Source: Acidobacteriota bacterium (GTDB taxonomy: Bacteria > Acidobacteriota > Terriglobia > Acidiferrales > UBA7541). Taken from it: DNA of 57,408 bases. How positions within the stretch are numbered: the stretch's first letter is position 1; the number at the start of each line of letters is the position of its first letter. Positions 4,311-26,088 of the stretch are shown in pieces. The position numbers were made by a program, and so were the translations under genes. The stretch is taken from contig QHYM01000101.1 in the NCBI GenBank assembly GCA_003223295.1, positions 1 through 57,408 on the forward strand. Direction: 5' to 3'. The notes below the pieces were generated by a model. That model did no database searches, was not told where the DNA came from, and saw only the letters and a program-made list of their open reading frames with translations.

Positions 4311-4375
4311 CTGCGTTCCAATTTTAGTTTTCGTGGAGTGTCAGGGATATTGAATGAATGGCGTCCCGCGGATGC

Positions 4376-5611: not shown

Positions 5612-5673
5612 TTGAAGGAGACTCGAGAGCAGCGAAGAACAAAGGGCTACGCTTTGTTTGCATCCAGAGGGAG

Positions 5674-6906: not shown

Positions 6907-7098
6907 TCTTCGCTCCTATGGAACCGTTGTTTTGCGATTTGGCTTAAGAGGCTGACTGCCTTGAAATTTGTTCCTCAAAGCTTTCCAAAGCGGTTCTTGA
7001 CAGGCTTTCGTCCACCTGAGGAATACAATTACCCTTCGACGCTGGCTAAAAGCAGCTCGGCAAGAACTAGGAACGAGCCTCTACAAAGAATCGTTTGC

Positions 7099-8763: not shown

Positions 8764-8909
8764 GAGGTTGCCCCCCAACAATTTGGTTTCGGGCTGGAAA
8801 GAGCGAGTCCGTCAAACGTTCGATCCCCTGGGCAGGGGAATAGCGGCGTCCTGATTATCGCCGAGAAAGCTTCATCCTTTTCGTTTCCTGCGGTAACTGT
8901 GAGGCGCAA

Positions 8910-10148: not shown

Positions 10149-10158
10149 TTTTCTGTTT

Positions 10159-11349
10159 TTACTGAGGATCTACCGAACACACCGGGGGAAAAGTGTGGGA
10201 AAGCTCGCCGTGTAACGTCCCTGTAGCCAACTGCGTGTAGATTGCTTGATAGCGCGCAACGATGTTTGAGATTGCGAAGTGCTCTTGGACTCGCCGCCTC
10301 GCGGCCACTCCCAGGCGGCCCCTTATTTCGGGTCCCGCATCGATGAGTTTCCACCATGCATTGGCCAAGGCGTTTGGATCGCCAGGAGCCACTACAATTC
10401 CAGTCTGTCCAACGATAATGGCGGAGTCTCCCACGTCAGTGACGACACAAGGCGTTCCACACGCCATGGCTTCACCGATAACGATGGGAAAGGCTTCACT
10501 GCGAGAAGCAGTCGTGGCGATATCTATCCCAGCAAAGACGCGCGGCATATCCTGGCGCACGCCTAAGAGATGACAGCAGTCGCGTAACCCCGCTGCGTCA
10601 ATCCATTCCGCCAATTGTGAGTTCTGCCACCTAATATCGAGACCGCAGAGCAAGAACTGAATTTCCGGTTTTTGTTCGTGCAATAGCGCTGCTGCCTGGA
10701 GGAAGTTGCAATGATCCTTATGGGGATGGAAGCGGGCAGCCATGCCAATGAGAAGAGTATCTTTGGGAATGCCTAGCTCCTCACGCAGCGAGGCTCGAGC
10801 TATTGGATCGGGTTTGACCTGTTCGAGATCGAAGCCGTTAGGGACAACCTCCAGTTTCTCCGAGGCGTAACCAAGTTCCTTATGAAGGCGCAGCGACGCC
10901 TGTGAGCAACATACAATTCTGGCCGACAGTCTTCGCGACAAGAGAGCGCACGCGCGATTGACGAGCATGGTGCGGCGCTTGTCCACAAGAGGGTCTAGTA
11001 CGCTGTGGTGGATGCCCCACACAACGGGCACGTCACTTGCTAAGTGAGCAGCAAAGGCGCCGACCAAGTTTGCGTGGTACATCCAGGTGTGAACGACATG
11101 CGGTCTCGACTCGCGGATCCATTTTGCGAGGCGCACTACGAGGAACGGGTTAGGAACACTCGCTTTCATCCCGAGTGTGCGCACGCGCACACCGATTCCT
11201 TGCATGCTCTCCGCCAAATCCAATATACCGGTAAGCGAAACGATTTCGTTTTCAAACCGCGCCCCATCCATCCCAGACACCATTCTGCAGAGCATGGTTT
11301 CCGCGCCGGCTGGGCCGAGCGTGGTGATGATATGCATGATTTTGATCAT
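10159..11349 (-). CDS. Glycosyltransferase family 4 protein
   Basis: About 396 residues. The open frame reaches 11358, where a TTG overlaps the upstream stop; the ATG at 11349 is preferred. The N-terminus IMHIITTLGPAGAETMLCRM is the glycine-rich acceptor-side loop typical of GT4 enzymes. TLLIGMAARFHPHKDHCNFL around residue 200 and EAFPIVIGEAMACGTPCVV around 290 form the donor site with paired glutamates. No signal peptide or membrane segment, so it is cytoplasmic or peripheral. It is translationally linked to its neighbours: the upstream gene ends at 11355 and the next starts at 10148. Expected role: one sugar transfer in assembly of the EPS repeat unit. Confidence 0.9.
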   Translation of the reverse strand: MIKIMHIITTLGPAGAETMLCRMVSGMDGARFENEIVSLTGILDLAESMQGIGVRVRTLGMKASVPNPFLVVRLAKWIRESRPHVVHTWMYHANLVGAFAAHLASDVPVVWGIHHSVLDPLVDKRRTMLVNRACALLSRRLSARIVCCSQASLRLHKELGYASEKLEVVPNGFDLEQVKPDPIARASLREELGIPKDTLLIGMAARFHPHKDHCNFLQAAALLHEQKPEIQFLLCGLDIRWQNSQLAEWIDAAGLRDCCHLLGVRQDMPRVFAGIDIATTASRSEAFPIVIGEAMACGTPCVVTDVGDSAIIVGQTGIVVAPGDPNALANAWWKLIDAGPEIRGRLGVAARRRVQEHFAISNIVARYQAIYTQLATGTLHGELSHTFPPVCSVDPQ

Positions 11350-11354
11350 ATCCT

Positions 11355-12530
11355 TCAAGTTTCCCGAAGTGACATGGCTTGCTGTCGATCAACGTTTTCG
11401 GTCTTGAGGCGATGCGAATGATCGATCAAATTGTCGTACAACTGCTCGTATTCCTGGACCATCTTCGAAACGTCAAGGTCTTTTGTGGCGCGCCGCGCCG
11501 CTGCCGCGCCCATTGTTTGCCTAGTTTCTGGTTTGCTTAAGAGAGAGCACATGCAGTCAGCGAGACCCCGCGCATCTCCCTGCCGCACCAGGAAACCTTC
11601 GCTTCCATCTGCGAAAAGGTCAGGCACGCCGCCGACCGCAGTGCTCACGATGGGGAGCCCGGCAGCCATTGCTTCCATAACCGAGAGCGGATTGCCTTCC
11701 CAGTCCGAGCTCAATACGAAGACATCCATGGCGTTTAATACGTCTGGTATATCAGTCCGCACTCCAAGGAAATGGACTTGCCCAGCCAGGCCGAGACTCT
11801 TTACTTCTTCTTTGAGTTGTTCCCTCAGAGGGCCTTCTCCAACCAGGACCAAATGGGAGTTCGGACCGGAAGCGGGGCCTTGCGCGAACGCTTTCAACAG
11901 CAGCGCGTGATTTTTCTGTGGGGCAAAACGCGCCACACACACAAAGAGAACTTGATCGTCGCCGAAACCCTCCTTTGCCCTCCATTCGTTTCGTGAGATC
12001 TTCGGCTGGGCATAAGCGGCCGTTGCAATACCGTTGGGGACAACGCGGCACTGTGGTATCCCATACAGACGCTTCAGGCTGAGTGCCACTTCTTCGGAAA
12101 CAGCTACAGGGACTACCCCGTGCTTGAATGCGTAGCGCTGAATAAACCGCGCTCTCGGTTCGATCTCTCGTTCCGCCAAATTGTGGACTGTGTGCAACAA
12201 GGATGTGTACTTTAGAAGTAACAGAGATGGTAAGGCGTACCGAAGCACGTGCAGATGGGTGTGAACAATATCCGGGCGATAATCGCTTAACACGCGATGC
12301 AGCCGGAGGTACGTCCGGCCGTCAAATCCCCACCCCTTTCCAAGGTAGCTAACCGGCACGCCAAGATCATCGAGAAAATGTTCGAGGTCACATCCGGTTC
12401 GGCGCCAGATCGAGACCAACGCCGTTTCGAACCGCTCCGAGTTCAATCCTCTGGCTATGTCAACGGCAACGCGTTCGGCGCCACCGGGTCCCATCATGGG
12501 AACGATATGGACTACTTTAATCTTCTTCAT
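11355..12530 (-). CDS. Glycosyltransferase family 4 protein
   Basis: 391 residues with N-terminal VVHIVPMMGPGGAERVAVDI (acceptor-side glycine loop) and C-terminal VLFVCVARFAPQKNHALLLKA plus LSSDWEGNPLSVMEAMAAGLPIVST, the donor site with the EX7E pattern. It is similar in architecture to the following gene at 10159-11349, and the two probably arose from one family though they are clearly diverged. It lies 70 bases after the ligase/polymerase gene and overlaps the start region of the next gene, as expected in a tightly packed operon. It adds one sugar to the lipid-linked precursor; linkage and sugar are unknown. Confidence 0.9.
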   Translation of the reverse strand: MKKIKVVHIVPMMGPGGAERVAVDIARGLNSERFETALVSIWRRTGCDLEHFLDDLGVPVSYLGKGWGFDGRTYLRLHRVLSDYRPDIVHTHLHVLRYALPSLLLLKYTSLLHTVHNLAEREIEPRARFIQRYAFKHGVVPVAVSEEVALSLKRLYGIPQCRVVPNGIATAAYAQPKISRNEWRAKEGFGDDQVLFVCVARFAPQKNHALLLKAFAQGPASGPNSHLVLVGEGPLREQLKEEVKSLGLAGQVHFLGVRTDIPDVLNAMDVFVLSSDWEGNPLSVMEAMAAGLPIVSTAVGGVPDLFADGSEGFLVRQGDARGLADCMCSLLSKPETRQTMGAAAARRATKDLDVSKMVQEYEQLYDNLIDHSHRLKTENVDRQQAMSLRET

Positions 12531-12600
12531 GGCGTCAGTTTGTCTAGTCGGTGGAAATTCCTCTTCGTGGACCTAGGCGCGGCTCACGAGAGCACGATTC

Positions 12601-13950
12601 TCACGACCACGATAAGTGCAAAGCCGGTGCTTGACTCTCCTCAATGTCGAAAGCGCCCGCCTGTGCGGTGAAGCGCTTCTTGCCCATGGCGCCGTATTGC
12701 GCCAACAGTAGGCCGAAGAAGAACCACGTTGGTTTCCGCATTTCCCAAGTCAGACTGGACACCCCAACCAGCCACACTGCCAAACAGACAAACCACAGTT
12801 TGCGGGGAAGGGAAGGCAGGGCCATCATTGACAGCACCAAGACGCCTAGTAAGGCGCAAAAGACAGCAAGACCGATCACTCCCTGCTCTACAAGGACCGA
12901 CAAGAACGTATTGTGGGCGGGGGGCGCGGGCGAGTCCGGGTCGTCGAGGCGAATCGGTTCTGCCAAGACACGGCAAACGACGAGCCGGAATGCGTTCGAT
13001 CCAATACCGAGAAATGGATGCTCGCGGAAAATTTCCCAGCCTGCGCTCCAGATAACCCTGCGCCCGGAGAGCGTCCCATGTTCCAATGCGTCGGGCACGG
13101 TCGAAAGGCGTTCCCAGGAGGTCGCGGGTACGAAGACAAGAACACCAGTAACCAGGAGTGACCCCGTCAATAGAACACCGATTCTCTGGCGCCCGGTGAG
13201 GCGCGCACTGGTAAGCGGCACGATGGCCAGCGCCACAAGACACGCAAGCGTGGCGCCCCTTGAGGCTGTAAGCAATACCGTGGTTCCTGCCAAGGCTAGT
13301 TGCAACCTGTAGACCCACGCCATTAGGCCTTTGCCTTGAATAAGCAGGCAGTAAGAGACAGGGATGCTTAACGCCATCATGAGTCCAAGATCGTTCGCAT
13401 CTAACCGTGCACCCGCGTAGCGCTGGTAAGAGGACTCCTGATGAGAAAGAAACATATATATCGTGTCTATTCCCGAAACGAAGGTTCCCAAGATGTAAGC
13501 CTGCATTAATCGCTTCTGTGCTTCAGCGGTTGGGGCGAGTTCCCATATCAGCCACACGAGCACCAAGAGCTGAATGTAGGTAACCGTTTGAGTGAGAGTG
13601 CCCTCCGGATAAAGACTCCAGAGGTAGCTTCCCGCTGCCGATATGACAAACAGAGCCATCATAAAGTGGCCAGCTGCGGGGCGTCTTAGACTCCCCTTTT
13701 CGAGGATTGCCATGAACCCGAGAACAACCGCCCCTGTTCCGATCAAGCGTGCGCTTGTGCCAAAGCCAGAAATCGTGATGGCATCTTCCCAGGGAATAGC
13801 GAACAGCAGTAACCAAAGAGAAGTGAATGCTAGCTTGCCGAGGCCCGTCAGCTCTTCTGCCCTCGCGAAAGGGCGGGTGCCAACATTCCTAGCAGGTTTG
13901 ATTGCGGCCCAATCCCCCGGTGGTGCCGCCAGTGGTGCGGACAGCGTCAT
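12601..13950 (-). CDS. O-antigen ligase / Wzy-type polymerase family membrane protein
   Basis: 449 residues with about ten to twelve hydrophobic segments, beginning after a 35-residue cytoplasmic N-terminus. The Wzy_C (O-antigen ligase) hallmark is near residue 340-375: a large periplasmic loop including GIGSNAF followed by HNTFLSVLVEQGVIGLAVF. Proteins of this family either polymerise EPS repeat units or ligate glycan to a lipid or protein, and sequence alone does not separate these. As it sits beside Wzx-, Wza- and Wzc-like genes, a polymerase role (Wzy) is the simplest reading. Its ATG overlaps the flippase stop by four bases (ATGA type), indicating translational coupling. Confidence 0.85.
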   Translation of the reverse strand: MTLSAPLAAPPGDWAAIKPARNVGTRPFARAEELTGLGKLAFTSLWLLLFAIPWEDAITISGFGTSARLIGTGAVVLGFMAILEKGSLRRPAAGHFMMALFVISAAGSYLWSLYPEGTLTQTVTYIQLLVLVWLIWELAPTAEAQKRLMQAYILGTFVSGIDTIYMFLSHQESSYQRYAGARLDANDLGLMMALSIPVSYCLLIQGKGLMAWVYRLQLALAGTTVLLTASRGATLACLVALAIVPLTSARLTGRQRIGVLLTGSLLVTGVLVFVPATSWERLSTVPDALEHGTLSGRRVIWSAGWEIFREHPFLGIGSNAFRLVVCRVLAEPIRLDDPDSPAPPAHNTFLSVLVEQGVIGLAVFCALLGVLVLSMMALPSLPRKLWFVCLAVWLVGVSSLTWEMRKPTWFFFGLLLAQYGAMGKKRFTAQAGAFDIEESQAPALHLSWS

Positions 13951-15272
13951 GCCGGTTCAGCCCTTTGGGTATACAGGCGAGTCTGCAATTGCACGCCTCT
14001 CAGCAAAACGATGATGCTCCCGGCAAGCTGCACGATTGTAGCGACGAGCATCGCAAAAACCGCCCCGAGCAGGCCGCGCTGCGGAACCAGCCAATAACAG
14101 GTGAGGAAAAGGCTTAGAATAGAGGCTGCATTCAGTCCAATCTGCGGCTTATACAGATTGGCTGCGGTCATCCCGAATCCCAAGAACTGAGCCATAAACG
14201 AAACGCCACCGGCCACCATGATCCAGGGCAGGAGGTCTGCTCGTTGAGCGTACTCGGGCCGAAACACCATGGTAAGGATCTCGCGCCCCGCTAGTTTGGA
14301 GACGAGCATGCCGCACAGTCCGATCGCCATCCCAAGAGCAAGTAGCTTTCCGAGGAGCGACCAGAACACCGCAAGATTGCCGGCGGCGTACGATCTTGCC
14401 AACCGAGTGAAGGCCGACTGACCCAGCGAAACCACGGCCATGTTTCCTATCGACACTACAAGTCCAATTGCCGCGAAAACGCCGACAGACCGGTCTCCTA
14501 GCGCACTCTTGATGAAGAAATTGGGGATGCTCGAATTCAAACAGCCCAAGAGCATTACCACTCCGAGGGGGAGGCTGACCCAGAGCACTTTGCGTTGCAC
14601 GGCAAAGTCGAACCGCGGGGTTAGCGGCTCGCTTCGAGAGAACCATTTGGACTGTGCGGTCAGACCTTGGGTGCGCCCGCCCATGTCATAGCTGAAGAGA
14701 ATGACCCCGCGTGCCAAGGCTACACCTGCGATTCCCCACAGAACACTCCGGCTTACATAAGTGGCGAATACCAGGCTGAGCACGGAAAGCAGCGACCTTG
14801 CAATGAGTGATTTAGAGATCTCCGCCATTCTGTCGTGTAGTTGCAGGCGCGCGTAATACACATCGCTGATGGTTTCAACGCCGTACGCCACGCCCACCAT
14901 TAAAACTACTGTCGTCAGGTTCCGGTCGTAGGAAAGGATTTGCGTAATGGCGAAAACAATCGCGAGCGCCAGCGATGTAGTAAGGAGCCGAAGACCGAGG
15001 TAATGGCCGAAAACAGCATGCTGATGGCTGTTAGAGATCAGGACCGCCCGTAGTTGCAGGTTCGTGAACAACATCACCGGGTACACGAGAGCCAGACCTA
15101 AGGCGTACTGTCCTACCATTTCCGGCCGAACCAGCTTCGCCAAGAGCATCAGCGTCACAAACTGTCCGCCTGCATAGATGGCATTCCCGACAAACATCCA
15201 GCTGAAATCCGCGCCCAAGGACGCGGGTTTTTCTTGAGCGATGGCAAGCGCAGTTGGAGATTCGACATTCAT
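13947..15272 (-). CDS. Oligosaccharide flippase family protein (Wzx/MATE-type)
   Basis: 441 residues with a regular series of about twelve to fourteen hydrophobic helices (FVGNAIYAGGQFVTLMLLAKLV at the start, through LLGAVFAMLVATIVQLAGSIIVLL at the end), the pattern of polysaccharide biosynthesis proteins in the MOP/MATE superfamily. It should move undecaprenyl-linked repeat units from the inner to the outer leaflet of the cytoplasmic membrane. Start ATG 15272 lies three bases after the SGNH gene stop, and the end overlaps the polymerase gene, so it sits inside one transcription unit. No unusual insertions. Confidence 0.87.
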   Translation of the reverse strand: MNVESPTALAIAQEKPASLGADFSWMFVGNAIYAGGQFVTLMLLAKLVRPEMVGQYALGLALVYPVMLFTNLQLRAVLISNSHQHAVFGHYLGLRLLTTSLALAIVFAITQILSYDRNLTTVVLMVGVAYGVETISDVYYARLQLHDRMAEISKSLIARSLLSVLSLVFATYVSRSVLWGIAGVALARGVILFSYDMGGRTQGLTAQSKWFSRSEPLTPRFDFAVQRKVLWVSLPLGVVMLLGCLNSSIPNFFIKSALGDRSVGVFAAIGLVVSIGNMAVVSLGQSAFTRLARSYAAGNLAVFWSLLGKLLALGMAIGLCGMLVSKLAGREILTMVFRPEYAQRADLLPWIMVAGGVSFMAQFLGFGMTAANLYKPQIGLNAASILSLFLTCYWLVPQRGLLGAVFAMLVATIVQLAGSIIVLLRGVQLQTRLYTQRAEPA

Positions 15273-15275
15273 AGG

Positions 15276-16310
15276 TCAGCGATCGGAGCCAATAAGGGAT
15301 CTCTGTGTACTTAGGGATGAAAGCGCAGAAACCGGATCTGGAGCACGACGTTGAACCCGGGACACCAGCGAATTACCAGTCGCAACCCGCTCGGGGAGGT
15401 CTTTCGCCAGCGCAGACGTGAAAAGCAGCGCGCCCTCCGAATTCAGATGCATGCCATCATGATCGTAAAACTTTGCCGATAGCGCCGCTGGATCAATCGG
15501 CACAGACACATCCACTCCCACCCGGTGCGCGGCACTTGCCATTTGGCCGACGGCATTCTCTGAAGAGAGAGTCGGAGGGACCAAAAGAATCAGCTTTGCT
15601 CCGTACGATTCGCATAGGTCACGCAGCCTCTGCAAACGGGGAATGGCGATCGCATCAAACTCGCGACCCTGAGGAATGGATGGCGCCGGTCTTATGAGTG
15701 AGAAAAGATCTTGAAGATGCGGCACTACGCGGCTAAGAACCTGGGTTCGAATTGCGCTCCGCGTATCCCAGAACGTGCTCAAATGTGCCAGCAAAAGATT
15801 GCTCGTTGCCGTGTGATCTAGATTTAGGTCGGAAGCCACGGCGAGCGTATCTCGGGCGTCCAAGAACAACATGGGAACATAATCCTGGCGCACGCCGCTC
15901 TCCAGGAAGTAATTCACGCCTACGCCCACAACAATCACTTCGGGCCTTACCCCCCGACGGAAAAGTCGTTCCAGACCGTAAAGCCAATCGTAATAACCGG
16001 TTGCCTCAAGAAAGATGGGATAGATGCGCATCCTCGAGGAAGTCAACGCCTTCAGACGATCCATCTCAACTCCTCGCAGCAGTAAGGAATTGCCAACCAT
16101 CAGGACAGACGCCGGTTCTCTGGTTCCAGCGGGACGGATTTTGAGGGCTTGCTCATACTGTTGAGAAATGCGCGCATAGGTGGGTGAATCATGCTTTAAA
16201 AGGTAGTCGGACGAGACCTCCAAGCCGATAATGAGAATGGCGCAGATCCAGGCCAGGCCTTTTGCATAGGCCACGGCCGCAGGTTCAGAAGCGGAAATAG
16301 ATGAACGCAT
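15276..16310 (-). CDS. Membrane-anchored SGNH-type esterase/acetyltransferase partner of the MBOAT protein
   Basis: 344 residues. One N-terminal membrane helix (GLAWICAILIIGLEVSSDYL) is followed by an SGNH-fold domain: VLMVGNSLLLRGVE near residue 70 carries the nucleophile serine in a G-N-S block, and DHDGMHLNSEGALLF near 285 carries the D-x-x-H catalytic pair. Proteins of this shape beside an MBOAT gene act like AlgJ/AlgX/DltD-type partners, taking the acyl group passed across the membrane and placing it on the exported polymer (family knowledge; specificity inferred). The start lies inside the MBOAT gene (26-base overlap), which supports tight coupling. Catalytic residues look intact, so it is unlikely to be a dead homologue. 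Confidence 0.78.
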   Translation of the reverse strand: MRSSISASEPAAVAYAKGLAWICAILIIGLEVSSDYLLKHDSPTYARISQQYEQALKIRPAGTREPASVLMVGNSLLLRGVEMDRLKALTSSRMRIYPIFLEATGYYDWLYGLERLFRRGVRPEVIVVGVGVNYFLESGVRQDYVPMLFLDARDTLAVASDLNLDHTATSNLLLAHLSTFWDTRSAIRTQVLSRVVPHLQDLFSLIRPAPSIPQGREFDAIAIPRLQRLRDLCESYGAKLILLVPPTLSSENAVGQMASAAHRVGVDVSVPIDPAALSAKFYDHDGMHLNSEGALLFTSALAKDLPERVATGNSLVSRVQRRAPDPVSALSSLSTQRSLIGSDR

Positions 16311-17715
16311 TGAATGTGTTTCCTGAGAAAAGCGCTAACAGAACGATAGCCGCAGTCGCGAGCCCAGTCCTAAAGGCGTAGGAAGCGCGGGCAAAAGGGT
16401 ATTCCTGGTTAGAAGCTTCCAGCAGCAAATCCACGAGGAACAACGGTACGGAGAAGAGGCTCAACATAAGAAACGCCGATGCGTACTCGCTGCGCCAGGC
16501 GAAATTAGACAGTCCAGCCAAGAACTCTATCGCTGAATTGAGGGAGGTCGATCGGAAGAAAGCTAAGCTCAAGCAAAAGATGTTAAAAGTGAGAATACGC
16601 TGTGCCCAGAGCGAGAGAAAAGCCGCGAAGGGTTTGGGCTGCGCCGCACCGTCGGGCTTTGAGGCCGGCCACAGGTGTCGCTCAATTGCCAAGACAACGC
16701 CATGAATAGCGCCAAAGATGACGAACGTCCAGTTTGCGCCATGCCAAAGTCCCGCCAGAACCATCGTGACCAGGAGGTTCCAGAATGTTTTCCATTTCCC
16801 GCCGGCGCTGCCACCCAAGGGGATGTACAAGTAGTCTCGCAGCCAGGTGCTCAAACTAATGTGCCAGCGACGCCAAAGATCTTGCAGCCGGGGAGCCAGA
16901 AACGGCTGCCGGAAATTAACCATGAAATGGAAACCCATCAGTTGAGCGCTGCCACGCGCGATATCGCTATAGCCGCTGAAGTCACCATACACTTGCCACG
17001 CAAACGCGTAGGTCCCGATCAAAACAATCCAGAAGTTTGGCGGGCCAAATTGCCCGCCAAACGCAGCATTTGCCAGCAGCGCGCAGTTGTCTGCAACCAC
17101 GCACTTACGCACGAGACCGGAAAAAATCAGCATCAGACCGTCGAAAAACCGGTCGGCATCAAAGGTGCGTTCCTTCTGGACTTGAGGGAGTAAGTGCCCC
17201 GGTCTTTGAATTGGGCCTGCGATCAGGTGTGGAAACAAGCTGACGAATAGGCCGTATTCGAAGAAGGATTTCGCAGGCTCAAGTCTGCCCTTATAGACAT
17301 CTACGATGTAGGCCACTTCCTGAAATGTATAGAAAGAGATGCCGGGCGGAAGAATGACGCGGATGAGGGGCAAAGGAATATTGTGGATGCCCATAGTGTT
17401 CAAGGCCGCTGAAAAGGAGTCAACGAAAAAGTTAAAGTACTTGAATGTTCCGAGAATGGAGAAATTCAGCAGCAGGGAGAAGATAAACCACTTTTTACGA
17501 TTCGCATTTTCGCCAATCGGCGCGATCTTCTGCGCGATTACGAAATCCATCGTTGTGCTGCAGATCATGAGCGCAAGAAAGCGCCAATCCCACCAACCAT
17601 AGAAGACGTAGCTCGCCAGCAACAGAAAGATGTTTTGCCCGCGGCGATCCAAACACCAATAGGCCAGCACGACAGGGATCAAGAAAACAAAATATGCGGG
17701 AGAATCGAAAAGCAT
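16285..17715 (-). CDS. MBOAT family O-acyltransferase (AlgI/DltB-like)
   Basis: 476 residues with about eleven membrane helices. The N-terminus MLFDSPAYFVFLIPVVLAYW is typical of the AlgI-type family. The invariant catalytic histidine region is LAGLWHGANWTFVIFGAIHG around residues 305-325, preceded by the family block RRWHISLSTWLRDYLYIPLGG. These enzymes pass acetyl groups from a cytoplasmic donor across the membrane for O-acylation of an exported polymer. It directly overlaps the SGNH gene, which probably finishes the transfer. In this cluster it indicates that the exopolysaccharide is O-acetylated. A 134-base gap separates it from the tyrosine kinase gene upstream, the largest gap inside the core cluster. 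Confidence 0.92.
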   Translation of the reverse strand: MLFDSPAYFVFLIPVVLAYWCLDRRGQNIFLLLASYVFYGWWDWRFLALMICSTTMDFVIAQKIAPIGENANRKKWFIFSLLLNFSILGTFKYFNFFVDSFSAALNTMGIHNIPLPLIRVILPPGISFYTFQEVAYIVDVYKGRLEPAKSFFEYGLFVSLFPHLIAGPIQRPGHLLPQVQKERTFDADRFFDGLMLIFSGLVRKCVVADNCALLANAAFGGQFGPPNFWIVLIGTYAFAWQVYGDFSGYSDIARGSAQLMGFHFMVNFRQPFLAPRLQDLWRRWHISLSTWLRDYLYIPLGGSAGGKWKTFWNLLVTMVLAGLWHGANWTFVIFGAIHGVVLAIERHLWPASKPDGAAQPKPFAAFLSLWAQRILTFNIFCLSLAFFRSTSLNSAIEFLAGLSNFAWRSEYASAFLMLSLFSVPLFLVDLLLEASNQEYPFARASYAFRTGLATAAIVLLALFSGNTFNAFIYFRF

Positions 17716-17849: not shown

Positions 17850-20162
17850 CTACTGTCCGACATAATCCTTGTAAACGCCATAGCCTCCGTAGCCATAGCG
17901 CATAGTCCTGGGATCCCAGCTGTTCAGAACGGTACCTAGCACGCGCGTTCCATCTTCGGTGAAGCGCTGAATGGCAAATCGCGCGCTTTCCGTAGTGGTT
18001 TGCCCGGCACGGACAACCAGAATTACCCCGTCAGCCAAACGGCCAAGGACGCGCGCATCCGCCAATTGGATCATGGGTGGCGCATCGATCAAGACCATGT
18101 CAAATTCACGTCGCAGACGTGCCAAAAGCTTGGACATCCGCGGAGAATAAAAGAGATTCGTAGGAGTTACGCCGCAATTGCCACTAGGCAGAACGGAAAG
18201 ACCAGCCACCTCGGTCTTCCGAGCAAGGTGGGACATGGGAAATTCTTCAAAGGGCGTGTCCGACAACAGTACATCGTTCAGCCCCCACCGGTTCGTCATA
18301 CCAAAAACCTGATGTATCCTTGGCCTGCGCAAATCGCCGTCAATCAGCAGAACCTTGCGACCTATCTCCGCCATCGCGATACTGAGATTGCAAGCAACGG
18401 TTGTTTTGCCATCGCCCAAGCATGGACTTGTCAGGAGCACAACTTGGGGAGGATCTCCATCTTGGTTTGGCAAGAGAATCGAAGTTAGCGTAGTGCGGAC
18501 ACATTCAGCAATCAACGATGGCTTGCGCTTCCATGTAGCTAGCTCTGGACTCTTGTCACTCGAGTCTGACTCAACGCCCGACGGAACGGATGGAGTTAAT
18601 CGACGCATATTGAGAAGGTTGGCCCCGTGCCGCGAAACGGCGGTGTCGTCTAACGGGATGACGCCCAGCTCCGGCAGGTCCAAATAGATCTGTGCCTCGC
18701 CCGGGGCGCTTATCCTGCGGTCAAGTCGTTCGCGGAGCAGCACAAAACCAAGTCCCAGGAACATACCGCCCAACAGCCCAATTGCAGAATTCATTGGAAG
18801 ACTAGGACGGTAGGGGAGCTTAGGTGGTCTGGCCCGGTCAATGACCATGACATTGCTGTCCCGCATTGCAGCAGCCAGGCTGGCTTCCTTAACTCTCTGC
18901 AACATCGTTTCGTAGAGTCGGCGGTTCGAATCGACATCTCGCTTTAAGGTGTCATAGTGGATTGCCTTGCTGGACTGGTCGGCCACTACCTTCTGCTGCG
19001 CGTCGTGCGCTTCGGTCAATAGCTTTTCACGGCGAAGCGCGGCTTCATACTCGTTTCGCATGCGGCCTAGGACGTTGCCGCGTTCCTTTTCTATCTGAGC
19101 CTTCAGCTCATCAATCTGGGCTTGCACGCGCAGCACCTTGTAATGCTCAGGCGTAAGCGTTGCGCTCAGCTCGGCGTATTGCCGCTGCAATTCGGTCAGC
19201 TTTTGGCGGTAGTCGCGCATCGTGGGATCTTCCAGAATTTCTGGCAGCGAGTCCGCCGATTTGCCGGCGGCCTCGGCGTATTTTGCCTGGTTGGCGATGC
19301 GGTCGGCTTGCGCCTTAGAGAGCTCGTCCTGTATTTCTTTAAGGCGCGCCTCCGCTAAACTCTCCTTCTCTGACGTAAACGATAGTCCGGTGATGCGCGC
19401 GTAATCTTGGAGTTGTGCCTCCGAGGCTTCTAGCTGGGTCTTCATTTCATCTAGATGGTTCGTTAGCCACTCAGCTGTCCCTTGGGCTGATTTCCAGTGA
19501 GCCTCTTGCGATAGTTCCGTAAATTCGCTGACGAGTGTATTGGCGAAATCGGCCGCTTGTTTGGGGTCCGGAGACTCATAAAGGACCTCCAACAGTCGCG
19601 AGCTGCCCGAACTCTGCACCGTCAGGTTGCGTTCCACCTGCCGGATCATTTGCTCTCGTTCTGAGAGGCGACCAGTCCTGGAAAATGCGAAGAGGCGATG
19701 CACGCGCGACGCGAAGATTCCCCACGCCGTTGTCGGCTGTTCTTTGTGGAGCTTCATCTTGTCGATTACGTGTTCGATGAGAGATTCGCTTTGCAGAAGC
19801 TTGACTTGCGTCTCCACGTACGATTCCTGCGACACATAATTCCCGTTGGAATCAATTCCTTTCATTTCCTGGAAATTCGTGCCCTGGATCTCGAGGGAAG
19901 TTCTCACGCGGTAAATGGGCGTCTGAACCAAGCTGATCATGATCGATGCAAGCAGGCCCACGACAGCAAACCCCAGCAGCGTCATCCTATGACGAAACAG
20001 GATGTGCCAATAGTCCCGGAGACTGTCGTATTCTTGCCCCGGCCCTGTCCCCGCGCCACGTGATTCTAAGTACTTGCAGGGTACGCGGCGCGATTCCCTC
20101 CGCGGACTCAGCTCCGTCTGACGTTGGTTTGATCTCTCGATTGGCAATTCAGAAAAGTCCAC
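17850..20162 (-). CDS. Polysaccharide chain-length regulator / bacterial tyrosine autokinase (Wzc-type)
   Basis: 770 residues. Wzz domain with first membrane helix near residue 57-77 (TLLGFAVVGLLASIMISLV), a long periplasmic coiled coil (about 200-420, rich in Glu, Gln and Lys), a second membrane helix near 455-475 (AIGLLGGMFLGLGFVLL), then a cytoplasmic BY-kinase domain. The kinase has Walker A CLGDGKTTVACNL, Walker A' VLLIDGDLRRPRIHQ and Walker B MVLIDAPPM. The tail YGYGGYGVYKDY is a tyrosine cluster, the autophosphorylation site in this family. It controls polymer length and couples synthesis to export with the outer-membrane partner encoded just upstream (22-base gap). Single-chain organisation, as in Proteobacteria, not split as in Firmicutes. 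Confidence 0.93.
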   Translation of the reverse strand: MDFSELPIERSNQRQTELSPRRESRRVPCKYLESRGAGTGPGQEYDSLRDYWHILFRHRMTLLGFAVVGLLASIMISLVQTPIYRVRTSLEIQGTNFQEMKGIDSNGNYVSQESYVETQVKLLQSESLIEHVIDKMKLHKEQPTTAWGIFASRVHRLFAFSRTGRLSEREQMIRQVERNLTVQSSGSSRLLEVLYESPDPKQAADFANTLVSEFTELSQEAHWKSAQGTAEWLTNHLDEMKTQLEASEAQLQDYARITGLSFTSEKESLAEARLKEIQDELSKAQADRIANQAKYAEAAGKSADSLPEILEDPTMRDYRQKLTELQRQYAELSATLTPEHYKVLRVQAQIDELKAQIEKERGNVLGRMRNEYEAALRREKLLTEAHDAQQKVVADQSSKAIHYDTLKRDVDSNRRLYETMLQRVKEASLAAAMRDSNVMVIDRARPPKLPYRPSLPMNSAIGLLGGMFLGLGFVLLRERLDRRISAPGEAQIYLDLPELGVIPLDDTAVSRHGANLLNMRRLTPSVPSGVESDSSDKSPELATWKRKPSLIAECVRTTLTSILLPNQDGDPPQVVLLTSPCLGDGKTTVACNLSIAMAEIGRKVLLIDGDLRRPRIHQVFGMTNRWGLNDVLLSDTPFEEFPMSHLARKTEVAGLSVLPSGNCGVTPTNLFYSPRMSKLLARLRREFDMVLIDAPPMIQLADARVLGRLADGVILVVRAGQTTTESARFAIQRFTEDGTRVLGTVLNSWDPRTMRYGYGGYGVYKDYVGQ

Positions 20163-20184: not shown

Positions 20185-21180
20185 TTATGGTGTACGCCAG
20201 ATCGCCAGGCCCGTTCCCGTCTGAACGGCGGCTTCCAAGGCCCGTAAGGCCGCTTTCTTGCCTGTGCTGCCGGGAATGAACAGAATATCGTCGCCTTGTA
20301 GTGCGACGTCTTGCTTCTTTCCCTTGAGGAGGTCCTTCACATCTACCAGCAATTCTTCACGCTGATCGGCCTCGCGCTTCAGCCGCAGGATCTTGGCATG
20401 CCGTGCGTCGGCTGTTCCGTTGAGCCCCTCAGCGAGCGAAAGCGCCTGCAGCACGGAGATGGATTGATGCTCGCCAAGAACAAATCCTCCCGAGCGCTTG
20501 ACCTCTCCGATGACGTAGACCATCTCGGCCTTTGGAACAGAGATAACATCATGCGGGAGAATCCGGATATTCTCTGCGGGGTCCTTGGCTTCCATGATCT
20601 TCTTCAGGTTCACCTCAGCCACAGTGAACTGAGCAGACGCGTCCGGCACTGCTCCAGGCAAGGGAATGCAACCCCACTCGAGTTGCCGTGTGATGCGCAC
20701 GCTGTATCCTGCGTCCGGCCGAATTCCACCGGCTGATGCCAGCATCTCCAGAAGTGTCTTGTATCCCTGCACCTGGTGGACACCCGGCGTGTTCACTGCA
20801 CCCAGGATTGAGACTGGCTGACTGCGCACCTCGGAGACGTTGACGACCACTTGCGGATCGCGAATGTACGTTCGCAGAACTTTGTCGAGCTCCTTCTCGG
20901 CCTGCTGCGCCGTTAGACCTGCCAAATGGACGCGCCCCACCAACGGCACTTGAACGTCCCCATCGCCGTCGATGCGGGCAGGCTTGTTGCCGAACTCGCT
21001 CAACTCCGGCGCAGAAATCTCCACCTGGTCATCAGGTCCAAGCAAATACGTGGAGTGAACGCGGTCATCACATTTTATTTTCTGAACATCGGACCCTGTT
21101 GCCGAAGGAGTCTGCCCGGCAGCATGGGCGCCGAAGAAAAGGATCGCCACACCGACCGGCACGACTCTTGTAGTCTTCAT
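20185..21180 (-). CDS. Polysaccharide export protein (Wza-like, SLBB domains)
   Basis: 331 residues: signal peptide (VVPVGVAILFFGAHAAGQ), a Poly_export domain opening with YLLGPDDQVEISAPEL near residue 45, then two SLBB-type beta-grasp regions (about 125-200 and 220-300; VSILGAVNTPGVHQVQ and VYVIGEVKRSGGFVLGE). It should form the outer-membrane exit channel working with the Wzc-type kinase. Classical Wza is a lipoprotein, but here the signal peptide has no cysteine at a lipobox position; the first cysteine, in KIKCDD, is outside such a context. Anchoring must therefore be different, or the protein is a periplasmic adaptor. It is 62 bases after the sugar transferase gene. Confidence 0.9.
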   Translation of the reverse strand: MKTTRVVPVGVAILFFGAHAAGQTPSATGSDVQKIKCDDRVHSTYLLGPDDQVEISAPELSEFGNKPARIDGDGDVQVPLVGRVHLAGLTAQQAEKELDKVLRTYIRDPQVVVNVSEVRSQPVSILGAVNTPGVHQVQGYKTLLEMLASAGGIRPDAGYSVRITRQLEWGCIPLPGAVPDASAQFTVAEVNLKKIMEAKDPAENIRILPHDVISVPKAEMVYVIGEVKRSGGFVLGEHQSISVLQALSLAEGLNGTADARHAKILRLKREADQREELLVDVKDLLKGKKQDVALQGDDILFIPGSTGKKAALRALEAAVQTGTGLAIWRTP

Positions 21181-21242: not shown

Positions 21243-22634
21243 TCAATGTGCTCCGCGACCTAAGAGCACTACCTTGGCGGTTTCGAACAGGATTGCGAAA
21301 TCGACCATGAGCGATAAATTCTTCACATAGAACAAATCGAGGGCCAATTTTTCCCTCGCGTCGTCAAGACTGGCACTGTATCGAAATTTCACCTGTGCCC
21401 ATCCCGTAAGGCCCGGACGGACGGAATGCCGAAGATTAAAGTAAGGAATCTTTGCTTCCAGCATTGAACAAAAGCATGGACGCTCGGGTCGCGGACCTAC
21501 CAGACTCATTTCTCCGCGTAACACATTAAACAACTGAGGAATCTCATCCAATCGAGTGTTGCGCAAGAACCTGCCCACTTTCGTGACTCGGCTGTCTTCG
21601 CGTGAGGCCCAGCGCGGCCCATCTTTTTCAGCATCTTGAACCATCGAGCGGAATTTCAGCAATTCGAATTCAGCGCCCTTATACCCGATGCGACTCTGAC
21701 GAAAGAAGATTGGTCGTCCTGTTTCTATGTAAATGGCTAGTGCGATCCCGGGGAGAAACGGCAATACGCACAAGAGGATGAAAGAAGAAATCATAATATC
21801 GATTGCTCGCTTGGCCGCGAGCAGGACCGCTGATTTTTCGAAACCATCTGAGAGGATGAACCAACTGGGTGAGAGATGTTCCAACGTGATCTGCCCGGAG
21901 AGTCGCTCACGGCAGCTGTGAACGTCCTCCACCTTGACGCCTGTCAGTTTAAGACTCAGCAATTGCTCGACTGGCGTGCTGCCCCTCCGTTCCTTTAGGG
22001 AAAGAACGACTCTGTCGACCTTTTCGCGGGCAACGATCTCCTCCACATCCGAGGCAGCACCAATAATTCCTGGGTTAACCAGAGATTTCCCAATGTCCAT
22101 CCCCTGCTCATCCAGAAATCCGACTACCTTCATGTTGTGTTCCGGATGTTTAAGAATGTGCCGGACGAGCGATATTCCCGCCTCGCCTGTTCCAACTACC
22201 AAGACCCGTTCGTCTCCGCGGGCGAGTAGCCTCGCGGTATCCGCCGAAAATCGCCAACTCAGCAGGACGACGAAAAGCACGGGGACAGTGATAAGCATGA
22301 CGCCGCGACCGACGTTCGCTTGCGGAATCGCGAAGTAGCTGAGTCCCAGAACGACGCAGCCAGCTCCGAGAGCCCGCATGATCCGTATGACCAGGCTGGC
22401 ACGACTCCGGACGGCGTGAGAGTCGTACAAATCATTAAAATACAGCGAGAGCCAGTAAATGACGGTTACCAGTGCTATCCTAGCCCAAACCACAACATCG
22501 GACAGTACACGGGGAGTGTCCCTGGAAAAGCGCAGCCCAACCGCCGCCGTCAAAGCCAATACGATAGCGGCCGTATCCACACTTGCCAGCAGCAACGTCT
22601 GTGCTGGAATTTGATGAGACCCGATCCTAAACAT
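21243..22634 (-). CDS. Undecaprenyl-phosphate sugar-1-phosphate transferase (EPS initiating enzyme)
   Basis: 463 residues. Four to five N-terminal membrane helices, a central Rossmann-like domain (VLVVGTGEAGISLVRHILKH, about 145-165), one more membrane helix (IMISSFILLCVLPFLPGIAL), then the bacterial sugar transferase domain: FFRQSRIGYKGAEFELLKFR, then RNTRLDEIPQLFNVLRGEMS and LVGPRPERP, then RPGLTGWAQV. This is the polyisoprenylphosphate hexose-1-phosphate transferase family. It starts synthesis by loading the first sugar phosphate on undecaprenyl phosphate at the inner membrane. It lies 47 bases after the PEP-CTERM-like gene. The sugar (glucose or galactose) cannot be told. Confidence 0.93.
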   Translation of the reverse strand: MFRIGSHQIPAQTLLLASVDTAAIVLALTAAVGLRFSRDTPRVLSDVVVWARIALVTVIYWLSLYFNDLYDSHAVRSRASLVIRIMRALGAGCVVLGLSYFAIPQANVGRGVMLITVPVLFVVLLSWRFSADTARLLARGDERVLVVGTGEAGISLVRHILKHPEHNMKVVGFLDEQGMDIGKSLVNPGIIGAASDVEEIVAREKVDRVVLSLKERRGSTPVEQLLSLKLTGVKVEDVHSCRERLSGQITLEHLSPSWFILSDGFEKSAVLLAAKRAIDIMISSFILLCVLPFLPGIALAIYIETGRPIFFRQSRIGYKGAEFELLKFRSMVQDAEKDGPRWASREDSRVTKVGRFLRNTRLDEIPQLFNVLRGEMSLVGPRPERPCFCSMLEAKIPYFNLRHSVRPGLTGWAQVKFRYSASLDDAREKLALDLFYVKNLSLMVDFAILFETAKVVLLGRGAH

Positions 22635-22681: not shown

Positions 22682-23134
22682 TCATCTGTTGCTCGATAGC
22701 TGCTGTAGTTGCCGAATTGCTACCTGCTTCATGGAAGCTGTTGCGCTTTTTGACTTCATCGACATTCGTGGGATCACCGGCTTGGATGGCCCGTGGAGAT
22801 TTCGGGCTGGACTCGAGTGTACGGCCATTCCCTGAGTGTCTTCTCCTTCCTCGACTGAATCGGACCGTCCCATCTTCAAGGCAATGAGCGATGCCCCGAC
22901 AATTAATCCGATTCCGGTCAAAAGCAGCAGTCCAGTAGACGGTTCAGTCGCAAAAGGCCCAGTCGTCGCTGCGCTAATTAGGCCCGCAGAATCTTCAACA
23001 TCTGTGTTGGCGATAGTAGCGGAAAAGGATGCTCCCCGTCCCGCATCTGCAGAGTCTGCTCTGTCCGCACGATCTGCGGGAGGCAAACACAACAGAATAA
23101 GCGCCCAGAGCATGGCAATCCACTTCAGTCTCAT
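22682..23134 (-). CDS. Small exported protein with a PEP-CTERM-like segment
   Basis: The start is set at the ATG at 23134 because GAGGAG lies seven bases upstream; the open frame extends five codons further to a TTG. Product 150 residues: signal peptide (WIAMLWALILLCLPP), a short linker with an ADR/ADS repeat, a low-complexity Ser/Thr/Ala stretch, then TEPSTGLLLLTGIGLIVG at 63-80 and KMGR at 87-90. Motif, hydrophobic helix and basic stop mimic a PEP-CTERM sorting signal (normally PEP then helix then Arg-rich end), with Thr replacing the first Pro. Unlike true PEP-CTERM proteins, about 60 residues follow the basic patch. It is the second gene of the EPS series. No exosortase gene is seen in this window. 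Function unknown. Confidence 0.6.
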   Translation of the reverse strand: MRLKWIAMLWALILLCLPPADRADRADSADAGRGASFSATIANTDVEDSAGLISAATTGPFATEPSTGLLLLTGIGLIVGASLIALKMGRSDSVEEGEDTQGMAVHSSPARNLHGPSKPVIPRMSMKSKSATASMKQVAIRQLQQLSSNR

Positions 23135-23349
23135 TTTCGTTCTCCTCAAGCGAGAATCCCTGGTTAGTATGTCAGTGGCCGAGATGAGTAATTATGACTG
23201 GCAAGAATGGGCCACAGCGTGAATGCAGCCAATAGCAAAAGGCACGCCAACAAAAACTGTACCGGGAAAGGCTGGCACAACTTGCTTGATCTCCAGCTGT
23301 TGCCTAATCGCTCTAAGCTTCGGGCTGATTCTGCTAAGTTTGAGCGCGA

Positions 23350-23919
23350 CTACGCCGCGGGTCGTGGCGAGACGTGCTCAGATGCAACTTGTTTGCTCGA
23401 AGACGGCTTCGCTGGGGAAAGCGGTCGGACCCATTCCTCATCAATCTGCACCGCTACCGACCGCTGCAAGAGCGTTATCGACAACACGAGCCTTTGATGT
23501 CCTCTGTGACCCAACAAAATTCCTTCTAGGCCACAAAGAGGACCAAACTCAATTTTCACTTTGTTCCCAATTTGTAAAAACGGCCAGGGCTGCCTGGGAA
23601 CCTCGGATTTGACGGCCGCTTGAATAGCGTCAATTTCAGTTTTGTCGACCGGCAGCAGTTTTTTACCAGTCCCTACAATGTGCACAACTCCTGGGACTGT
23701 GAGAACGGGTAGGCGATTCAGGGGGTTGAACTGACAGAACACGTATCCAGGGAAAAGCGGAACGTCGATTTCCACAAAGCGGTCCGACCACCTGTGCCGT
23801 TCCTTGTACAAAGGCAGGAACGCTTCCATCCCCCTTACTCGCAAATGCCTTGCCACCAGATCTTCGTGTTGGCTTCTGACTTGCACTGCGTACCACTGAA
23901 AGTCATCTTGCTGATCCAT
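23350..23919 (-). CDS. NusG/RfaH/UpxY-type transcription antiterminator
   Basis: 189 residues with an NGN domain (QWYAVQVRSQHEDLVARHLR, then LPLYKERHRWSDRFVEIDVPLFPGYVFCQF) and a C-terminal KOW-like segment (GNKVKIEFGPLCGLEGILLGH). The GGAGGAA ribosome site is seven bases before the ATG. Size, placement as the first gene of a polysaccharide operon, and divergence from housekeeping NusG fit the specialised paralogues UpxY/RfaH/LoaP, which join RNA polymerase at a leader signal and prevent termination in long operons. A perfect ops-consensus match lies 58 bases before the start codon on the transcribed strand (23977-23987). Predicted role: allow transcription through the roughly 20-kb leftward EPS gene series. 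Confidence 0.88.
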   Translation of the reverse strand: MDQQDDFQWYAVQVRSQHEDLVARHLRVRGMEAFLPLYKERHRWSDRFVEIDVPLFPGYVFCQFNPLNRLPVLTVPGVVHIVGTGKKLLPVDKTEIDAIQAAVKSEVPRQPWPFLQIGNKVKIEFGPLCGLEGILLGHRGHQRLVLSITLLQRSVAVQIDEEWVRPLSPAKPSSSKQVASEHVSPRPAA

Positions 23920-23976
23920 CGCGCGTTCCTCCGCTTGCCTTGGACGCCCTTGGAAACGGTGTAATTTTCAAAGGGT

Positions 23977-23987
23977 AGGCTACCGCC
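23977..23987 (-). promoter_or_regulatory. ops-like (operon polarity suppressor / JUMPstart core) element
   Basis: Minus-strand GGCGGTAGCCT fits the ops consensus GGCGGTAGCNT at every fixed position, and with the two preceding bases reads GGGGCGGTAGC as in enterobacterial JUMPstart sequences. It lies 58 bases upstream of the antiterminator ATG, inside the expected transcript leader. In Escherichia coli the non-template ops strand pauses RNA polymerase and recruits RfaH. GC-GGTA-GC can form the small hairpin described for ops, and here GGTA-GCC-TACC offers an alternative four-base-pair hairpin. The sequence match is direct; recruitment of the adjacent NusG paralogue is inference. Confidence 0.6.
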
Positions 23988-24389
23988 CCTTGAGTCCCAT
24001 TTTCGGGGTACCTAATGCGTATCTGATCGGCATATACTTCGCTTCGCGTCCCGGTTTCTCGCTTAAGACTGCATGCTGCGTGTTTTTCTTACCCGCTAAA
24101 ATGACCGTATCAACACCAGCGATTCTCGCAATCCAGCTATTCCTCCATTTCTTCTGGGAATAACACTGTAGTACAGAACATTTACTATCGATGTCTAGCT
24201 TCCAAGGCTACCCATTTCGATTAATCAAATGAGCTAGCCCTGCTGTGTCCATAATTGGTGACCGGGAGCGCCGACAGGTTGGCTTTTGGCAAGAGGCGGT
24301 TTCGGGCGTAAAAAATAAATCAGAGAACAGTGGCCGATCAGTTGTTTGAGCGATGGTTCACGCTCATCCTCATCTTGTAGGAAGCGAGC

Positions 24390-25476: not shown

Positions 25477-26088
25477 CTATCGCTGCGTCATGACAATTTT
25501 TCCGACGATCGCCGAACGGGAAGAGACTCCCGTTTTGATCATGATCAATCGCAGAAAGGCCCTCACCGTATTGGGACTAAGATTCATCCGGTTTGCAATT
25601 TCCTTGCTTTTCATCCCTTGCAACAAATACTCCAGCACTTCTTGTTCGCGTTGCGTGAGGTTGAATTGCTTGCCGACCTGCGACAAAAGAACCAATGCAG
25701 AGGGTCCTCTTTCAAACAGAACCGCAATGCCGGGCCGATCCGGACCTCCCGTGTGCGTATCTATTTGAAAGGCTCGGCAAAAGTAACGTCGCCTGCCGGA
25801 CTGAAACTGCGTAACGAAAAGCGAATCATCTGAGGACCGTTCCGTTTTCAATCTCGACCGAATTTCTTTAGTCAGAAGTGATTGAGATCCTGCTAGGCTT
25901 TCTATGTTGTCGGGATAGCCAAGGATCTGGATGGCCTCGCCATTGAACGAGACGGGGCTTAGCGAGCGATCAACCAGGAGAAATCCTACTCGCAACTTCG
26001 GCGGAGATGCCCTCCTATTCGCCGGTGATTGCTTCGATTCGAAAGCCGAAATTCTCTCCACGGTCTCGACTTGTTCAGCGGTTTTCAC
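25477..26088 (-). CDS. LuxR-family transcriptional regulator with N-terminal PAS-like domain
   Basis: 203 residues. After a 30-residue basic N-terminus, residues about 32-125 look like a PAS fold (VGFLLVDRSLSPVSFNGEAIQILGYPD, then RRYFCRAFQID). Residues about 138-195 form a LuxR/GerE helix-turn-helix: FNLTQREQEVLEYLLQGMKS, KEIANRMNLSPNTVRAFLRL. It has no phosphoacceptor receiver domain, so it is not a classical response regulator; the PAS-like part probably senses a ligand or partner. It is transcribed toward the post-COAP-1-like and EPS genes with a 347-base gap, and may be their local regulator (inference). Most close relatives of this layout are orphan regulators. Confidence 0.85.
   Translation of the reverse strand: MKTAEQVETVERISAFESKQSPANRRASPPKLRVGFLLVDRSLSPVSFNGEAIQILGYPDNIESLAGSQSLLTKEIRSRLKTERSSDDSLFVTQFQSGRRRYFCRAFQIDTHTGGPDRPGIAVLFERGPSALVLLSQVGKQFNLTQREQEVLEYLLQGMKSKEIANRMNLSPNTVRAFLRLIMIKTGVSSRSAIVGKIVMTQR

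Follow-up and report, generated by a model that had tools for sequence, protein, structure and literature searches.

The leader of a NusG paralogue gene in an Acidobacteriota bacterium contains a match to the ops consensus, which raises the question of whether the motif serves the paralogue as a signal or stands there by chance. The window, by which we mean the whole stretch of 57,408 nucleotides that was analysed, contains the motif, GGCGGTAGCCT, at 23977-23987 on the minus strand, as a preliminary description of this DNA had reported; the ATG of the paralogue gene starts 58 bases after its last base, with 57 bases between the two. Taken alone, GGCGGTAGCCT in the window proves nothing because the number of matches with one mismatch allowed (four, with 3.6 expected) is no excess over chance.

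The paralogue gene, its leader and the source genome

The features of the leader and of the genes that follow it are listed here in the order of transcription.

23993-24012, minus strand: possible weak stem-loop whose 3' arm is the upstream box; imperfect in the window leader, with a permutation signal at the family level
23992-23999, minus strand: upstream box TGGGACTC, which spans -23 to -16 when counted from the RNA 3' end at the predicted pause
23977-23987, minus strand: ops-like half GGCGGTAGCCT, a predicted pause with T11 (23977) as the RNA 3' end; conserved in the clade
23350-23919, minus strand: NusG paralogue (NGN and KOW domains), UpxY class, 189 aa, first gene of the putative operon
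22682-23149, minus strand: second ORF, a small protein in the place that upxZ occupies in Bacteroides
21243-22634, minus strand: sugar-phosphate transferase of the EpsB_2/XrtA type (TIGR03013, 446 bits, cut-off 393)
20185-21180, minus strand: polysaccharide export protein (Poly_export, SLBB; Wza-like)
17850-20162, minus strand: chain-length regulator with a tyrosine autokinase domain (Wzc-like)
3195-17715, minus strand: rest of the putative operon, with an MBOAT acyltransferase, a flippase-like protein (Wzx-like), a Wzy/ligase, three GT4 glycosyltransferases, a GH123-like protein, an FAD/NAD oxidoreductase, an ATP-grasp protein and family-less ORFs

Among the NCBIfam models matched by the NGN protein, UpxY (NF033644) is the only one whose cut-off is passed, and this marginally (103.8 bits, cut-off 100); the scores for RfaH (TIGR01955, 77.8 bits, equivalog cut-off 144.5) and LoaP (59.9 bits, curated cut-off 125) lie below theirs. 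The gene heads 16 same-strand ORFs that extend down to 3195 over 20.7 kb and include sugar-coat genes. With respect to gene order, this agrees with the preliminary description, which placed the paralogue at the head of an exopolysaccharide operon of about 20 kb; that the ORFs form a single transcript is what we infer. A upxZ neighbour was not found, the second ORF having no Pfam or NCBIfam match at E 0.001. A sigma-70-like promoter was looked for at the window leader and none was found, and the RNA of this leader folds no more stably than shuffled sequences (z 0.37). A gene for a LuxR-type regulator is located upstream of the operon on the same strand (25477-26088).

The source genome has seven NGN genes, namely the housekeeping nusG and six paralogues. 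Exact copies of GGCGGTAGCNT number 15 genome-wide, of which five lie 55-114 bases upstream of the start of an NGN domain, at five of the six paralogues; the reversed pattern has 37 copies, which were counted only, their positions relative to genes not being assigned. The leader of the sixth paralogue contains a variant class II element (see below), GGCGAAGC, and the leader of the housekeeping nusG contains neither ops nor the class II element. The combined pattern TGKGAC-N6-GGCGGTAGCNT occurs in four exact copies, each ahead of a paralogue. At the scale of the genome, the motif is not a chance occurrence. The other 10 exact copies were considered as trans targets and rejected, as the box was at its spacing in 0 of the 10, and a relaxed two-part search of the genome (2 mismatches) yielded 12 sites compared with 15 in the control, from which only the five known sites were accepted.

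A two-part element in the leaders of related paralogues

The first sample of relatives comprised 65 paralogue loci from 41 genomes (its own, the same genus, order and class). A tree was built from 63 of them, leaving out L007 and L110, which are short fragments; G029:C85, at a contig end, was not included. In this tree, ops (one mismatch allowed, 300 bases searched) was found in 28 of the 33 rows of the clade of the window protein (support 91/94), referred to here as the ops clade, and in 0 of the 30 rows outside it. A protein-only search of GTDB genomes provided the best 80 of 296 relatives, all of which are titled Acidobacteriota or groups within them and at least 10 of which repeat earlier loci. 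In the master set, proteins with identical first 80 residues are represented by a single row, and a leader was counted if it had 140 bases or more; some of the loci behind its class counts (110 ops-clade, 50 sister and 39 housekeeping leaders) had been fetched because of the two-part pattern or came from genomes selected by that pattern. The leader-blind counts, out of 99 and 54, and the alignment of 70 leaders are based on loci fetched irrespective of their leader.

Among the leader-blind loci, ops with at most one mismatch is present in 70 of 99 ops-clade leaders and in 0 of 54 other leaders, which belong to 29 sister paralogues and otherwise to housekeeping nusG (Fisher 3e-20, uncorrected for relatedness); shuffled ops-clade leaders contained the motif in 17 of 1980 cases. 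None of the 50 sister leaders and none of the 39 housekeeping leaders in the whole master set contains it. The preliminary description had proposed an ops consensus in cis at a UpxY-type first gene outside the Proteobacteria, with an alignment of related leaders as the check, and the motif is indeed conserved in these relatives. Its single ops site is present but incomplete, in that ops is one half of a two-part element, TGKGACT-N5-GGCGGTAGCTT, which we call class I. The box TGGGACTC and the sister-paralogue variant GGCGRAGC are two features that were absent from that description.

In the 70 leader-blind leaders, columns -12 to -6 read TGKGACT with 1.2-1.7 bits each, and the four columns before them (-16 to -13) carry 0.01-0.18 bits. 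Five weaker columns follow (-2 is mostly A), and then GGCGGTAGC(T/C)T. The TGKGAC box, which was outside the selection, is at spacing N6 in 51 of the 70 leaders, at N5 in one (L173) and at N7 in none. T11 is present in 66 of the 70 and position 12 is a purine in 61; the sites were chosen with at most one mismatch and T11 is part of the selection word, so the near-invariance, including that of T11, is partly by construction. The mismatch affects one of the four stem bases in a single case out of 21 single-mismatch sites, where it leaves a G-T wobble at position 9; an even distribution would put about eight there.

The consensus of sigma-54 promoters is TGGCAC-N5-TTGC, with GG and GC 12 bases apart. 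TGGGAC-N6-GGC resembles it, has the same 12-base distance and keeps its spacing almost fixed, both in the leader-blind alignment and in the phylum, where the N5-spaced pattern was found in 0 of 199 genomes; the element might accordingly serve as a promoter or be bound by a regulator of initiation. We regard this as very unlikely. T replaces the second G in 12 of the 70 leaders, there is no TT ahead of GC, and the GGTAGC past the presumed -12 box is near invariant. In addition, one subfamily has its ATG mostly 16-17 bases past the element, which leaves little room for a transcription start and a ribosome site, and what the sister clade has in common with E. coli ops is mainly the downstream half.

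The element is missing in 32 of the 110 ops-clade leaders, some of which perhaps use other signals. In an ops-clade subfamily of the R-T/S-RWE type, five leaders without the element (L094, L101, L107, L266 and L296) share GATTG, possibly another signal. The relatives L098, L142 and L190 retain ops but have an altered box, and in L173 the spacing to the box is one base shorter. The leader of a divergent paralogue from the same class (L100 in G034) contains a degenerate TGGGACCTTCAT-AGCGATAGCTC, which is beyond the one-mismatch limit.

A search for the exact N6 two-part pattern in 95 genomes of the order gave 43 sites in 31 genomes. An NGN paralogue gene follows 35 of these sites (28 from fetched loci and seven by coordinate match, one with a gap of 178 bases), and the other eight are located elsewhere in polysaccharide clusters. 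Seven of the eight have no nearby paralogue gene on their contig, and the eighth, a second site, lies 2.7 kb after a paralogue. Their first genes encode an ABC-2 permease (Wzt next), an asparagine synthase (glycosyltransferase next), an export protein (Wzz next), a DegT aminotransferase and, twice, a bacterial sugar transferase, once at the second site behind the same-cluster paralogue; at the remaining two sites, the first gene has a weak pectate-lyase-type match or no match, and a GT2 glycosyltransferase lies ~3 kb on. All eight genomes encode at least one ops-clade factor, the factor of G294 having no recognisable site of its own. Because 8 of the 43 exact sites lie elsewhere in polysaccharide clusters, the two-part element likely acts in trans too; the regulator site in cis that was originally described is the arrangement at 35 of the 43 sites, but the element is not confined to it. 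In one polysaccharide cluster (G290, L287:1135-1157 and 4198-4220), two exact elements lie 3 kb apart; the paralogue gene follows one of them and a sugar transferase the other, which would suit a reloading of polymerase.

These positions also bear on the direction of control. RfaH bound at ops is described as delaying escape (PMC5995543), and a factor that loads at the leader pause might hold polymerase there and thereby repress its own operon in a negative feedback, which would suit the fact that most sites precede the factor's own gene. Nevertheless, we consider such repression highly improbable: the sites elsewhere in polysaccharide clusters and the place atop a 20.7-kb gene run fit activation, and the known relatives RfaH and UpxY are described as activators.

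In 198 other genomes drawn evenly over the phylum, one exact N6 site was found, with no paralogue beside it. The exact element is therefore frequent only in some lineages of the phylum. The site in question (L192 in G058) overlaps long open frames and was rejected as chance.

A second element class in the sister paralogues

Two words, GGCGAAGC and GGCGGAGC, rank among the most frequent ones in sister-paralogue leaders. Of the 50 sister leaders, 40 contain GGCGRAGC, the core of the class II element (25 of 29 in one batch, 15 of 21 in the other); the core also occurs in 2 of 110 ops-clade and 1 of 39 housekeeping leaders. Since the pooled sister leaders were themselves the source of this word, their count is descriptive and not an independent test. 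A pyrimidine at R was seen in none of the 50 sister leaders, and the element is missing in 10. The typical class II form is CCTGTAAGTCACAG-GGCGRAGCT, in which a stem-loop is set against the core. Exact TGTAAGTSACRG-GGCGRAGC occurs in 25 copies in 20 of the 95 genomes, the reversed control giving 0, and all 25 are upstream of an NGN gene, 24 of them at 34-134 bases and one at 895. Five unused genomes (G242, G245, G246, G297 and G298) served as an independent test, and 7 of 7 exact class II sites in them precede an NGN gene.

The class II loop is one base shorter than that of class I. Among 39 class II leaders, 35 have T at position 11 and 34 a purine at position 12, both positions lying outside the search word. 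Because T11 and purine 12 are kept despite the shorter loop, the frame from G2 to T11 is held while the displayed loop differs. A box of the TGKGAC or AGGGAC type precedes the class II core in 9 of 41 listed leaders, at a spacing of 6-7, and since these boxes are like those of class I, the element halves look exchangeable. Overall, the comparisons show that both elements exist with a conserved register, that each paralogue clade has its own form, and that the sites are found ahead of a paralogue gene or within polysaccharide clusters. As the element class follows the protein clade, the link between the two may represent one or a few evolutionary events. Hybrid leaders that combine the box TGGGACTGAGA or its variants with the GGCGRAGC core are L052, L055, L074, L239, L246, L276, L277, L281 and one L053.

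A possible loading mechanism and its relation to known systems

From the sequence comparisons, we think it probable that the element is a co-transcriptional pause-and-load site for cognate NusG paralogues. We infer pausing, hairpin formation, binding, recruitment, antitermination and autoinduction in the following scheme. RNA polymerase would pause in the leader with T11 of GGCGGTAGCCT at the active site (G2 at -10, T11 at -1), and the exposed non-template GC-GGTA-GC would fold into a small hairpin, with the box TGGGACTC predicted to be in the upstream duplex DNA or in the RNA just leaving the enzyme. The NGN domain of the operon's own paralogue, or of a like one from elsewhere, would read the loop and the box, and the paralogue would stay on the polymerase and carry it through the 20.7-kb operon, of which its own gene is the first. 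Sister-clade paralogues would act likewise at GC-GRA-GC sites. A self-reinforcing switch of this kind fits the gene order.

The closest known systems are Bacteroides UpxY and E. coli RfaH with ops. According to Saba et al. 2024 (Nat Commun 15:10862), UpxY-type factors of Bacteroides reportedly use DNA signals in their own leaders and are said to be recruited to paused polymerase via exposed non-template and upstream duplex DNA, nascent RNA hairpins helping; a cis DNA signal of a UpxY-type factor, as proposed in the preliminary description, is thus already reported for Bacteroides. The two systems share a first-gene NusG paralogue of the same NCBIfam class, and the layout reported for Bacteroides is that of the two-part element. 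They differ in that the system described here belongs to another phylum, has the E. coli ops consensus as its non-template half, has a second loop class in sister paralogues and exact sites away from a paralogue, and gave no upxZ. UpxY is described as preventing termination within leaders that precede its own gene (PMC7819879), and two UpxY genes of B. fragilis are also described without upxZ (PMC7593976).

With E. coli RfaH and ops, the locus has in common the core GGCGGTAGC-N-T, the pause frame, the NGN fold and polysaccharide targets, which are presumed ones here, and in both cases the presence of sites distant from the gene of the factor implies that it acts in trans. The window protein differs from RfaH in having 22% identity to it, a score below the RfaH cut-off, a gene beside its presumed target, and a predicted beta-barrel KOW rather than an alpha-hairpin. 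The 300-base leader of E. coli rfaH itself contains no ops at one mismatch or fewer. The AlphaFold2 model (mean pLDDT 83, pTM 0.58; no RfaH control was run) has an NGN domain and a beta-barrel KOW, and in the model we see no sign of RfaH-type KOW autoinhibition. Among the PDB matches listed by Foldseek, the top target TM-score, 0.84 (1.7 Å, 96 columns), is for RfaH on the ops-paused complex 8pen.

RfaH is described as contacting ops through the side chains of K10, H20, R23 and R73 (PMC5995543). In 78 ops-bearing relatives, the K10 position is R or K in 69, the H20 position is L in 23, Q in 13 and H in 13, the R23 position is G in 34 and N in 24, and the R73 position, near which the alignment has a gap, is P in 74; the window protein has R15, H25, V28 and P76. 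The search for ops-reading NGN residues that had been suggested at the outset thus finds three of the four RfaH readers (H20, R23 and R73) not conserved. Because the ops-reading residues of RfaH are mostly absent, the system is not simply RfaH moved into cis, and the reading of similar DNA by different residues suggests convergence or strong drift.

Two other systems involve leader elements. JUMPstart (Rfam RF01707), described as a conserved stem-loop in polysaccharide leaders (PMC2864571), likewise combines a stem-loop with ops in such leaders; it differs in being listed for gamma-Proteobacteria, and its covariance model gave no match in the window leader (E up to 10), nor did Rfam in 19 related loci (E up to 1). 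LoaP of Bacillus is also a NusG paralogue with a leader element, described as needed for antitermination (PMC12691694), but it reads an RNA hairpin, and the window protein scores below the LoaP cut-off as given above. Among the open-licence PubMed Central titles listed, we found none on ops or GCGRAGC elements in Acidobacteriota.

An element read in the LoaP manner would be a nascent-RNA stem-loop, with the 3' arm GKGACTC, or CTGTAAGTCACAG in the sister clade, that is followed by a conserved single strand and would bind the paralogue. In 68 representatives, pairing with the box is stronger for a leader's own 5' flank than for permuted flanks (-4.24 compared with -3.62, sd 0.18), 1 of 2000 permutations being as low, and the 5' arm contains GGTCAC in four of five rows with the box TGTGACTC. 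However, the signal is absent in the 17 representatives with a deviating box (187 of 2000), and the box sequence is kept in leaders without a convincing 5' arm, that of the window included. Two class II sequences fold as stem-loops of 5-6 bp at -5.6 and -7.5 kcal/mol, which were matched by 22 and 17 of 200 shuffles. The ops half, moreover, keeps the E. coli pause frame. We therefore consider it unlikely that an RNA element is the main signal. The upstream stem-loop effect is modest, with relatedness partly removed in the 68 dissimilar leaders and the window leader folding weakly, and we hold the stem-loop to be a helper; it is compatible with DNA reading, and both could be true, as with Bacteroides UpxY.

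For the pause-and-load reading, the displayed loop suggests a further step. GNA and GNNA loops are described as a rule for unusually stable DNA mini-hairpins (PMC4686876). GC-GGTA-GC is a GNNA loop and GC-GRA-GC a GNA loop, each on two G-C pairs. With the DNA energies of ViennaRNA, the GGTA loop has a stable fold at -0.7 kcal/mol, and the class II hairpin has no stable fold and is unsupported by this calculation. It is conceivable, and we propose it tentatively with somewhat more doubt than belief, that the NusG paralogues of Acidobacteriota use a single-stranded DNA mini-hairpin code at paused polymerase, in which a GGTA tetraloop, that of E. coli ops read by other residues through convergence, would be set against a GRA triloop in the sister clade, with one pause frame, an exchangeable box, and action both in cis and in trans. 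For factors outside the phylum, we looked at 12 loci chosen from 97 plasmid records: ops at 0-1 mismatch was found in none, and GNA or GNNA in 4, with shuffles summing to ~1.9, which is too few to tell. GCGATAGC and GCGCGAGC lie in front of the RfaH-like genes L332 (Agrobacterium plasmid) and L335 (Marinobacter plasmid), respectively; they may be chance, and GCGATAGC may fit a wider GNNA rule.

What would be new is the ops consensus outside the Proteobacteria together with a two-form loop code tied to paralogue lineage. Here the consensus belongs to a different phylum and precedes UpxY-class factors encoded in cis, in which most of the RfaH readers are missing; a second loop, matched to lineage, accompanies it. 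If the loop-code reading is true, the very stable GNA and GNNA DNA mini-hairpins known from chemistry would have a natural job. The two loop classes could be used to separate the pause frame from the recognition loop, and elements for the predictable control of long operons might come of this. In these soil bacteria, gene sets for sugar coats often start with a short signal, at which the first protein probably boards the passing RNA polymerase.
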